This document shows, one piece after another, positions 21,997-24,992 of a stretch of 64,000 nt of DNA. Position numbers and translations under genes: made by a program. Source of the stretch: Candidatus Baltobacteraceae bacterium (GTDB lineage Bacteria > Vulcanimicrobiota > Vulcanimicrobiia > Vulcanimicrobiales > Vulcanimicrobiaceae); contig DASXGW010000013.1 in assembly GCA_036488875.1 (NCBI GenBank), positions 293,281 through 357,280 on the forward strand. The letters are read 5' to 3'. The first letter of the stretch is position 1, and the number at the start of each line of letters is the position of its first letter. The notes below the pieces were generated by a model. That model searched no databases and had not been told where the DNA came from. It worked only from the letters and a program-made list of their open reading frames with translations.

Positions 21997-22002
21997 ACAT
22001 CT

Positions 22003-22016
22003 ACTAAACTCTTAGT
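22003..22016. promoter_or_regulatory. BlaI-type operator 1
   Basis: ACTAA (22003-22007) and TTAGT (22012-22016) form an interrupted palindrome ending exactly at the -35 box of the blaI promoter. It shares the ACTAA...TTAGT core with operator 2. Repressor binding here would block RNA polymerase. Assignment to BlaI rests on location and symmetry. Confidence 0.6.
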
Positions 22017-22044
22017 TGACAAGCCGGCCGGGAAGGGCTAGAAT
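22016..22044 (+). promoter_or_regulatory. sigma-70-type promoter of the blaI operon
   Basis: TTGACA (22016-22021) and TAGAAT (22039-22044) with a 17-base spacer form a near-consensus housekeeping promoter. It is enclosed by two palindromic operators, and the blaI start codon lies 34 bases downstream of the -10 box. Confidence 0.7.
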
Positions 22045-22062
22045 CTACTAAACCTTTAGTAG
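22045..22062. promoter_or_regulatory. BlaI-type operator 2
   Basis: CTACTAAACCTTTAGTAG is a perfect palindrome with eight-base arms around CC. It starts immediately after the -10 box, so it would overlap the transcription start. BlaI/MecI repressors bind short palindromes as dimers (family knowledge); two sites around one promoter suggests cooperative autorepression. Confidence 0.7.
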
Positions 22063-22078
22063 TTCGAGCGAGGATTGC

Positions 22079-22465
22079 ATGCCCGGAAAGAAGCTCAAGA
22101 CTCTCACCAAGGCGGAACTGCGCGTCATGGAAGTACTGTGGCAGTGTCGCAACGGCACGGTGGCCGACGTTGTAGCAGCGTTGCCGCCGCCGCCCTTAGC
22201 CTACACGACGGTGTTGACCATGCTGCGGATCCTCGAGCAAAAGGGCATCGTGCGGCGCAAGCCCGATGGGCGAGCGCACGTCTACTATCCCTGTATCGAG
22301 CGCGACGACGCGGCGACCTCAGCGGTCGGCGACGTTCTGCGCTCGTTTTTTGCCGACAGCAAAACCGCGCTCGCTGTTCGTTTGATGGCCGAGGAAAAAC
22401 CGAACGCCGAAGAGCTCGCATCGATCAAAGCGCTGATTGCGCGCTATGAGGAGGAGGCGCCATGA
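22079..22465 (+). CDS. blaI: BlaI/MecI family transcriptional repressor
   Basis: A 128-residue winged-helix repressor: LTKAELRVMEVLWQCRNGTVADVV, the recognition region LAYTTVLTMLRILEQKGIVRR, the wing RAHVYYPCI, and a C-terminal dimerisation helix. In the known system a membrane M56 protease senses a ligand and triggers cleavage of the repressor. Here the M56 gene follows with an ATGA overlap, as expected for a BlaI-BlaR1 pair. No beta-lactamase gene is near, so the regulated stress need not be a beta-lactam. Confidence 0.9.
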   Translation: MPGKKLKTLTKAELRVMEVLWQCRNGTVADVVAALPPPPLAYTTVLTMLRILEQKGIVRRKPDGRAHVYYPCIERDDAATSAVGDVLRSFFADSKTALAVRLMAEEKPNAEELASIKALIARYEEEAP

Positions 22466-24219
22466 CGCCCGCCGCGGACACCGCCGTTCGTTTTATCATC
22501 GCCGTTCTCTTCAACGGTTTGTGGGAAGCCGCACTCCTGGCCATCGTGGCGTGGATTGCGCTGCGCGCGATGCCCAACGGCAACGCCACGACGCGCCATT
22601 CCGTGCTCGTCGCCGCGCTGCTCGCAAGCCTCGTTCTACCGGTCGCGACCGCCGTCGTGACGACAATGCATCCAGCCGCGGCTCCGGTTGCGGCAAGCGC
22701 GCACGAACCGCCGCCCAGCGCGCGAACGTTATCGCCGAAGGCATCCGCGATTACCGTACCGTCGCGTCAAGCAACGCCGGCCGTTACCGCGCCCCCGCGC
22801 GCGAATATCGCGCTGCCGCGCTCGATCGCCGTTGCGATCGTCGTCCTGTGGCTGCTCGGCGCCCTCTTCGTCCTCGTCCGCTTGATCGTCAGTCTCTGGC
22901 ACCTCGAGCGGCTCAAGAAGGACGCGTTGCCGGTCGCGGTCGAGTATCGCGCCCAGCTCACGCGCTGGAGTGCGGCAACCAAGGGCTCGCGCACGGTACG
23001 CCTGTGCCGCTCGGGTGAGATTGCGATTCCCATCGCGGTCGGCCTCTTCGACGCGATGATTCTCATTCCGGAGCGGTTTCTCGAAGAGCTCGAACCGGCC
23101 GACGTCGATCGCATCGTGCTGCACGAGCTCGCACACTTGCGCCGCGCCGACGATTGGATCAATGCCGTCGAGCGTCTTGCGTCCGCACTGCTGTTCTTCA
23201 ATCCGGGCATCGCATGGCTTGTCGCGCAACTCGATCTCGAGCGGGAAGTCGCGTGCGACGACTGGGTACTGCAGCAGAACGACCCTTTGCCGTACGCCAA
23301 CTGCCTTGCAAAAGTGGTTGAGTCGGCAGTGTGGCCGTACCGTGCGATGTCGGCGCCGGGTGCGTTTTTGACGCGCCGCGCGATGTCGGTACGCATCGAA
23401 CGGTTGCTCACCGCGCAGCGCGACGTGCGCGTCCGTACGTCGCTCGGACCGACCGGCATTGTCATTGCGGCACTAGGTGCGTTAGGTATCGGCGCCGCGT
23501 TTGTCTCACCGTCGTTCGCCTACACGGTGGCGGCACCGGGGCAATCTTCGACCGCTCCCGTTTTCCATCGAGCACTCGTCGCGCGCCACACTGTCCGCCG
23601 GTCTCAGGCGAAGCCTCAAGTACCGTCAATAGCCCTCAATGCAGTCGCAAAAGCGACCGCCGCCGCGACCGAGCCCGCAGCCACGCCTACGATCGTCGCA
23701 CCGACGGCGCCCCCGGCTGCAAAACCTGCCGTACGCACCGCCGCAAAGACCGCGACGCGAACGTCGATGGTCGTCGCCGCGAATTCGCCCGCGTATATCG
23801 ACGAACTGGCGGCGGCCGGGTATACGAACCTTACCGTCGATGAGCTCATCCAGCTCAGATCTCTCGGCGTTACCGCCGATTACATCCGCGGGCTAGAAAG
23901 CGCCGGCCTGCAGCATCCGACGGTTCGAGAGCTCACGCAAATGCGGGCACTTGACGTGCAGCCCGACTTCGTTCGGGATATACGCCAACATTTTGGTGCA
24001 GTGGACGTCGAGCAGCTTTGCCGCCTGCGCGCGCTCGGCGTGACGCCATCGTACATCGATCAGATGAAGCGCGTCTATCCCAGCTTATCGGTCGACGATG
24101 CGGCGCGCCTGCGCGCGCTGGGAATCGATGCCGATTTCATCGAGCGCGCTAACGCGCACGGGTTTCACAACCTCAGCATCGAGCAACTCATTCGTCTGAA
24201 GGTCAGCGGGATATTATGA
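22462..24219 (+). CDS. M56 (BlaR1-like) sensor protease with five C-terminal repeats
   Basis: A 585-residue membrane metalloprotease. There are about four transmembrane segments (about 8-35, 45-65, 115-137 and 327-350). The zinc motif is H221-E-L-A-H225, with EVACDDWVL downstream as the further ligand region. After the last membrane segment and an Ala/Thr/Pro-rich linker, residues 442-585 consist of five 28-29-residue repeats of the form A-x-Y-I/V-x-x-L-x-x-x-G-x-x-x-L-x-x-x-x-L-x-x-L-R-x-L-G-V. The protein stops one residue after the fifth repeat. There is no penicillin-binding sensor domain as in BlaR1; the repeats replace it. The next gene encodes the same repeats. Confidence 0.88.
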   Translation: MTPAADTAVRFIIAVLFNGLWEAALLAIVAWIALRAMPNGNATTRHSVLVAALLASLVLPVATAVVTTMHPAAAPVAASAHEPPPSARTLSPKASAITVPSRQATPAVTAPPRANIALPRSIAVAIVVLWLLGALFVLVRLIVSLWHLERLKKDALPVAVEYRAQLTRWSAATKGSRTVRLCRSGEIAIPIAVGLFDAMILIPERFLEELEPADVDRIVLHELAHLRRADDWINAVERLASALLFFNPGIAWLVAQLDLEREVACDDWVLQQNDPLPYANCLAKVVESAVWPYRAMSAPGAFLTRRAMSVRIERLLTAQRDVRVRTSLGPTGIVIAALGALGIGAAFVSPSFAYTVAAPGQSSTAPVFHRALVARHTVRRSQAKPQVPSIALNAVAKATAAATEPAATPTIVAPTAPPAAKPAVRTAAKTATRTSMVVAANSPAYIDELAAAGYTNLTVDELIQLRSLGVTADYIRGLESAGLQHPTVRELTQMRALDVQPDFVRDIRQHFGAVDVEQLCRLRALGVTPSYIDQMKRVYPSLSVDDAARLRALGIDADFIERANAHGFHNLSIEQLIRLKVSGIL

Positions 24220-24992
24220 CTTGCCAACGGTTTGCCTTCGTCGCGTTAGCGTCGGTGCTCGCCTTGGCAACGTACGGTAGCGCAAGCGCGGCCGATCTGA
24301 CCGGAACTTGGGCGATTTCGCCCGCAGCTTCCGCCGGAAAATTCTACTTCGATCTGACCATCGACGACCCGGCGGGACACTCACATAGCCGCAGCGGTTC
24401 CGATTACACTCCCTCCGCAATCGGTCTCACGCAACAGCAGCTCGCGGCCTCGGGACGTCACGTGCGCTTTACGATTGCACGCGACGCAGGTTCGTTTGCG
24501 TGCGACGGCTGGATAGCCGACGGCCGGGGCGGCGGCACGGTGACGTTCGCGCCGAGCGCGGATTATATTGCGAAGATGAACGCGCGCGGTTACGATCCCA
24601 GCCTCGAACAACTCGCATCGGCTGCGACGGTCGACCTTTCCAACGCTTTCGTTGACGGTCTTGCGCAGACCGGCATCGAGAAGCCGTCGTTTGAAGATCT
24701 CATCGCGATGCGGGCCCTCAACGCCGATCCTGCCTACGTCGACGATCTCCATTCCGTCGGGATCAACGTCAACACCGCGCGCGAGATCATCTCGCTCAAA
24801 GCCCTCAACGTCGACCTGGCCTACGTGAAAACGCTCGCGTCCGTCGGCTACACGAATCTCTCGTCGCACCAACTCGTGGAACTGCGCGCGCTCCGAATCG
24901 ACGCGGCCTTCGTTCGCAAGGTGCAGGCTCATGGCATCGCGCACCCGACCGTCGAGGATCTGGTGCGTCTCAAATCCTTGGACGTGCTCTAG
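24216..24992 (+). CDS. secreted protein with five M56-type C-terminal repeats
   Basis: A 258-residue protein overlapping the M56 stop by ATGA. A signal peptide (ALATYGSASAA) is followed by a beta-rich domain of about 85 residues containing TGTWAISPA and HVRFTIARDAGSFACDGWIADG. Residues 114-258 are five copies of the repeat seen at the end of the M56 protein (for example DLAYVKTLASVGYTNLSSHQ, then LVELRALRI). Both proteins end directly after repeat five. As both repeat regions should lie outside the cytoplasmic membrane, they may bind each other or the same ligand. No described function is known to me. Confidence 0.8.
   Translation: MTCQRFAFVALASVLALATYGSASAADLTGTWAISPAASAGKFYFDLTIDDPAGHSHSRSGSDYTPSAIGLTQQQLAASGRHVRFTIARDAGSFACDGWIADGRGGGTVTFAPSADYIAKMNARGYDPSLEQLASAATVDLSNAFVDGLAQTGIEKPSFEDLIAMRALNADPAYVDDLHSVGINVNTAREIISLKALNVDLAYVKTLASVGYTNLSSHQLVELRALRIDAAFVRKVQAHGIAHPTVEDLVRLKSLDVL

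Follow-up and report, generated by a model that had tools for sequence, protein, structure and literature searches.

A BlaI-M56 operon with matching alpha-solenoid repeats on its sensor protease and a secreted partner: a proposed penicillin-independent switch of the BlaR1/BlaI type

BlaR1/BlaI is the textbook antibiotic sensor, and many M56-BlaI pairs of environmental bacteria bear other outer domains. A 64,000-nt stretch from a Candidatus Baltobacteraceae bacterium (hereafter the window) contains a pair of this kind together with a third gene, and raises the question of what a sensor protease and a secreted protein do with the same C-terminal repeat. The operon consists of the genes for a BlaI repressor, an M56 (BlaR1-type) membrane protease and a secreted protein, in that order on the plus strand, with ATGA overlaps at both the blaI/M56 and the M56/secreted junctions (Table 1). 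The initial annotation, which had described the repeats from the letters and open reading frames, was borne out in its layout: five repeats each lie at residues 442-585 of the M56 protein and 114-258 of the secreted protein, exactly as divided there, both proteins finish one residue (a terminal Leu) past the fifth of the 28-29-residue units, and the coordinates confirm the ATGA coupling of the two genes (overlap 24216-24219). Position 22001, where the noted feature began, is the first base of an operator.

Table 1. Features of the sensor operon (positions in the window)
Feature	Position	Strand	Remarks
BlaI-type operator 1, CTACTAAACTCTTAGTTG, overlapping the -35 hexamer	22001..22018	+	1 mismatch to CTACTAANNNNTTAGTAG
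Sigma-70-type promoter TTGACA-17-TAGAAT (predicted)	22016..22044	+	11/12 consensus bases
BlaI-type operator 2, CTACTAAACCTTTAGTAG, perfect dyad just past the -10 hexamer	22045..22062	+	44 bp from operator 1
blaI, BlaI/MecI-family repressor, 128 aa	22079..22465	+	Pfam Penicillinase_R, E 1.8e-28
M56 membrane metalloprotease, 585 aa	22462..24219	+	Pfam Peptidase_M56 (PF05569), E 6.6e-29
M56 C-terminal repeats x5, residues 442-585, predicted extracytoplasmic alpha-solenoid	23785..24216	+	
Secreted partner, 258 aa: signal peptide, SECN beta domain, five repeats	24216..24992	+	
C-terminal repeats x5 of secreted partner, residues 114-258	24555..24989	+	

Alignment with homologues revealed that the metal-binding and catalytic residues of the M56 protein, H221/E222/H225 (HELAH, 221-225), E262 and D266, are invariant in 18 sequences, and the spacing of H221, H225, E262 and D266 is that of the BlaR1 catalytic residues His201, His205, E242 and Asp246 in its HEXXH...E motif (PMC9834060). 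Hydropathy placed four transmembrane helices (TM1-TM4) at about residues 11-37, 48-66, 121-139 and 331-349; TM3 is followed and TM4 preceded by positive charge, and the HELAH motif lies between these two. The predicted topology is therefore N-out/C-out, as in BlaR1 (PMC9834060), with a cytosolic protease loop and an outer C-terminal domain; since hydrophobic segments and charge pattern are BlaR1-like, the repeats are predicted to lie outside the membrane, as had been proposed, and a cytosolic placement is not what the prediction gives. In the AlphaFold2 model, core and solenoid for the most part reached a pLDDT of about 90 or more, residues 359-441 forming a linker, predicted disordered, that joins the two; the core matched that of S. 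aureus BlaR1 (8exq) at a Foldseek E of 3.6e-7. All AlphaFold2 alignments were built solely from homologues fetched in this analysis. Pfam searches at E up to 1 found no penicillin-binding, transpeptidase or beta-lactamase family in the M56 protein, as the initial annotation had held, and the NCBI BlaR1/MecR1 models scored far under cut-off, with matches confined to residues 121-284. Penicillin sensing was thus rejected, because the protein has no penicillin-binding domain. By family match, zinc motif, predicted topology and coupling to blaI, the M56 protein is assigned to the Peptidase M56/BlaR1-type antirepressors, and the Penicillinase_R domain and predicted inverted-repeat operators at its own promoter mark the first gene product as a putative BlaI/MecI repressor; the hallmarks of a beta-lactam sensor (a penicillin-binding sensor and control of a beta-lactamase or resistant PBP) were not found, the one further tandem-operator promoter lying before the gene of a PDZ protein.

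The predicted promoter is a strong one and has an operator-like dyad at each end, to which BlaI would bind. None of 100 shuffles of the window reached 3 operator matches at up to 3 mismatches. Two relatives, G002 and G016, have similar dyads upstream of blaI, as do Bacteroidota whose sensors are fused. The genome has two other blaI-M56 operons (L002, G000:C10; L003, G000:C4), whose operators are different from those in the window and whose M56 proteins end in pentapeptide repeats in one case and a TonB_C domain in the other. Most of the repeat-less M56 proteins fetched from the phylum end in pentapeptide repeats.

The secreted protein begins with a segment resembling a Sec signal peptide (hydrophobic at 6-24) and has no lipobox. 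Its AlphaFold2 model (pLDDT 89) showed a six-strand beta domain, for which we use the name SECN (about residues 28-113), followed by an 11-helix solenoid; the repeats of both proteins were modelled as helical, mostly at pLDDT 92-98. A profile HMM of the five M56 repeats scored 104.6 bits against the secreted protein (best of 1000 shuffles, 9.6), and the reverse HMM, of the secreted repeats, scored 95.5 bits against the M56 protein (best shuffle, 3.9); chance resemblance was rejected, since these scores far exceed the shuffled controls. Mean identity between repeats was 0.40 and 0.38 within the arrays, 0.34 between partners and 0.30 between non-partners, and at their C-terminal caps the M56 and secreted proteins resemble each other, both in the window and in its nearest relatives. 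Repeat numbers of partners were weakly correlated (0.29).

Searches of Pfam (E up to 1), NCBIfam and PDB gave no relatives or models of the repeat, and identity with pentapeptide, TPR, HEAT or ankyrin repeats was rejected for want of a match. Sub-threshold matches to UBA, HHH and DUF732 were scattered and inconsistent and were set aside, and sequence matches to a T-cell receptor and to ribosomal protein L4 were taken as chance. Comparison of the secreted-protein model with solved structures gave no Foldseek match at E below 0.001; its PDB look-alikes were dismissed, all having E above 0.01. In the open-access literature searched, neither the repeat nor operons of this kind were found described. 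The SECN domain and the pairing of solenoids, like the repeat, did not turn up in the databases and open-access literature that we searched.

Within the phylum of the window, probably Eremiobacterota, repeat profile A1 matched 18 of 60 genomes, and profile A2, made from secreted partners alone and with no M56 sequence, matched 46/297 Acidobacteriota, 46/296 Bacteroidota and 3/398 Pseudomonadota genomes. Domain calls on the fetched loci gave 103 gene clusters with the repeat. They come from Acidobacteriota, Bacteroidota, the phylum of the window and, rarely, Pseudomonadota, and their counts hinge on profile sensitivity and sampling and are not frequencies. Split pairs accounted for 30 clusters, always with the M56-repeat gene followed by the secreted-repeat gene on one strand; these ordered pairs were detected with profiles free of M56 catalytic sequence, and a BlaI gene precedes them wherever the examined stretch and frame calls could show one. 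Fused M56-SECN-repeat genes were present in 11 clusters, in one of which (L173) two further secreted SECN-repeat genes lie downstream. M56-repeat genes with no recognised partner made up another 11, some of them at contig ends and one (L036) looking fused by eye, and a single cluster (L052:2854-6302, G044:C12) is a broken triad, its M56 gene apparently lying in several frames and its blaI and secreted genes being kept. SECN-repeat genes without M56 were found in 25 clusters, three of which, having an upstream repeat frame cut at the end of the stretch, are probably triads. Another 25 were repeat-only, mostly encoding a Bacteroidota protein of 232-250 residues, in which the repeats follow a short N-terminal tail and a single TM segment. 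Weak Bacteroidota matches (about 30-60 bits, 270-420 aa; e.g. L161-L164, L166, L169) were dropped, as the repeat HMM did not confirm them.

These results reveal M56-repeat/secreted-repeat pairs in no fewer than four phyla. The association with M56, the lack of which would have told against the initial annotation, is strong, with 30 ordered pairs and 11 fusions; it is not exclusive, since about 47 of the 103 clusters have no M56 gene, and the secreted protein can therefore do something alone. Similarly, the idea that the repeat is a feature of the sensor/secreted pair holds as far as the pair travels together across phyla and gives way where standalone SECN-repeat and single-TM forms exist.

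Several neighbourhoods of the M56-less forms were also noticed. The single-TM Bacteroidota proteins of 232-250 aa belong to L104-L120, with contexts in L126-L130, and L099 encodes one of 299 aa; in L128-L130 their genes are flanked by that of a receiver-domain response regulator on one side and that of a small beta-barrel outer membrane protein on the other. In Acidobacteriota, standalone SECN-repeat genes (L121, L122, L125, L133, L134) lie behind or near secreted TPR or HEAT proteins, a neighbourhood that is conserved without M56. At L131:3333-5655, the gene for a secreted protein consisting almost entirely of repeats has a Beta-lactamase-family (PF00144) gene as its downstream neighbour, and the two genes overlap.

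On a tree built from 80 M56 cores, five state changes were needed to explain the fused forms, and well-supported branches forced three or more of these; fusion or fission thus occurred repeatedly, with split and fused forms interconverting at least three times. The M56 core of the window and its three nearest repeat-bearing relatives nested in a clade mostly carrying pentapeptide repeats, and a single clade of the phylum's repeat-bearing cores was rejected (p-AU 0.004, an optimistic value because the group was named after the tree was seen), which places the outer module, together with its secreted partner, on two or more separate M56 lineages of this phylum. M56-core and SECN distances were correlated (r 0.61; none of 2000 permutations as high), weakly so among deep pairs alone (r 0.20).

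Examination of the whole genome, allowing up to two mismatches, revealed tandem operators with the identical 44-bp spacing in one further place only (L219:7055-7116), where they flank a promoter-like TTGACA-17-TATTAT shortly 5′ of the ATG of a 593-aa protein. A PDZ domain was the sole Pfam match of this protein, and a clear signal peptide was not seen in it. The G015 orthologue, 51% identical over 583 residues, gave matches to both the Asp_protease_2 and the PDZ families, and its gene is GTGA-coupled directly behind that of a secreted SECN-repeat protein. Two independent lines, the second tandem-operator promoter and the G015 operon coupling, thus indicate the same target. Assignment of the 593-aa protein to the retropepsin-like aspartic protease family is putative and follows the match of its G015 orthologue, and the predicted regulon draws on the operators of one genome and the operon of one relative. 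Three paralogues of the protein in the genome (28-31%) have no such operators, and G021 was discarded as support for the regulon, as its homologue (43%) showed neither a BlaI operator nor an operon link. In G016, a BlaI-type operator lies over a TTGACA hexamer 5′ of the gene for a DUF4097 protein (L224:1501-2343, G016:C98), which is possibly a further regulon member. In two relatives belonging to different families (L050:2831-4918, L053:5860-7959), a gene for a DUF5916 protein comes directly after the sensor operon.

We consider it somewhat probable, at slightly better than even confidence, that the operon encodes an autoregulated, penicillin-independent switch of the BlaR1/BlaI type, with an outer sensor in two parts, a membrane-borne solenoid and a secreted co-sensor, that induces envelope proteolysis. 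BlaI would occupy the tandem operators and repress the operon. In the envelope, the SECN-repeat protein would dock via its own solenoid on that of the M56 protein and act as the ligand-reading subunit, being the sensor domain itself in the fused homologues. Binding of a signal would alter the complex and, through TM4, activate the cytosolic protease, which would then cleave BlaI and derepress both the operon and the second promoter bearing the same operators. The latter would drive the PDZ protein of the retropepsin-like aspartic protease family, the likely output being envelope proteolysis or quality control. BlaI binding and cleavage, solenoid docking, ligand reading by SECN, the direction of the signal and the proteolytic output are all inferred.

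The initial annotation had offered docking on the sensor and competition for its signal as alternatives for the secreted protein. Something close to the latter, in which the protein, induced with the operon, is a negative regulator that caps the M56 solenoid or takes up ligand on its own repeats and so ends the response, would fit a gene placed last in a self-regulated operon, sharing its repeats with the sensor and present in two secreted copies at L178, L179 and L173. We think this improbable, as the fused SECN-repeat unit stands in the sensor position, where a part of the receptor would be expected, and it is chiefly on this ground that we favour a co-sensor over a decoy. Because M56-SECN-repeat fusions exist, a physical partnership of the two proteins is likely and docking as a co-sensor is favoured over competition; the case for docking draws on these fusions and on the conserved pairing.

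A partnership might also be dispensed with, if both solenoids bound one envelope component (e.g. exported polypeptides or a cell-surface polymer) and the secreted protein were an effector of the response and not a sensor. The twenty-odd standalone SECN-repeat proteins, some behind TPR or HEAT proteins, the single-TM repeat family without M56 and the protease-family protein in the predicted regulon would all agree with this; repeated fusion of M56 to SECN-repeat units, like the constant order of the genes, points to a tighter link than a common substrate, and we judge this reading unlikely, to the same degree as the decoy. That the repeats are a relic of local duplication or a generic spacer with no joint function is very improbable: arrays of this kind do spread readily by duplication, and the like C-terminal caps in the window and its nearest relatives could be read in this way, but conservation of the pairs extends over at least four phyla, the repeats of partners average only 34% identity and the genes are co-inherited, which recent local duplication would not give. 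The two-part sensor with a secreted co-sensor remains our preferred reading.

In S. aureus and B. licheniformis, BlaR1-BlaI and MecR1-MecI resemble the operon of the window in that a BlaI-family repressor adjoins an M56 zinc protease (HEXXH...E) with an outer C-terminal sensor and operators on the operon's own promoter. In the window, an alpha-solenoid and a secreted partner replace the penicillin-binding sensor, and the gene predicted to be under control encodes a PDZ protein of an aspartic protease family, whereas BlaR1 and MecR1 control a beta-lactamase or PBP2a. The M56-BlaI operons with pentapeptide repeats or TonB_C in the same genome and phylum have the same core and differ in the outer module. 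The accessory anti-repressor MecR2 of the mec operon is reported to promote proteolysis of the repressor MecI (PMC3406092) and, like the secreted protein here, is a third gene product beside a repressor/protease pair; the product in the window differs in being predicted to be secreted and in carrying the outer repeats of the sensor.

The switch logic is that known from BlaR1/BlaI. To the initial annotation, this analysis adds the predicted promoter with its two BlaI-type operators. More broadly, the operon may represent a cross-phylum class of BlaR1-like receptors having a heteromeric double-solenoid sensor, in which the protease and a secreted co-receptor carry matching, unnamed alpha-repeats, and which would be modular, movable between protease cores, convertible to a single chain and devoted to envelope surveillance and not to antibiotics; we put this forward tentatively, a little short of even confidence. 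One non-penicillin outer module is now defined, common to the sensor and a dedicated secreted partner, fused in several lineages and tied to predicted operators and to a predicted target gene. Neither the repeat nor the SECN beta domain has a database family, and both could be added as such. Two small soluble proteins plus a reporter promoter now allow a direct test of what non-penicillin BlaR1 homologues sense.
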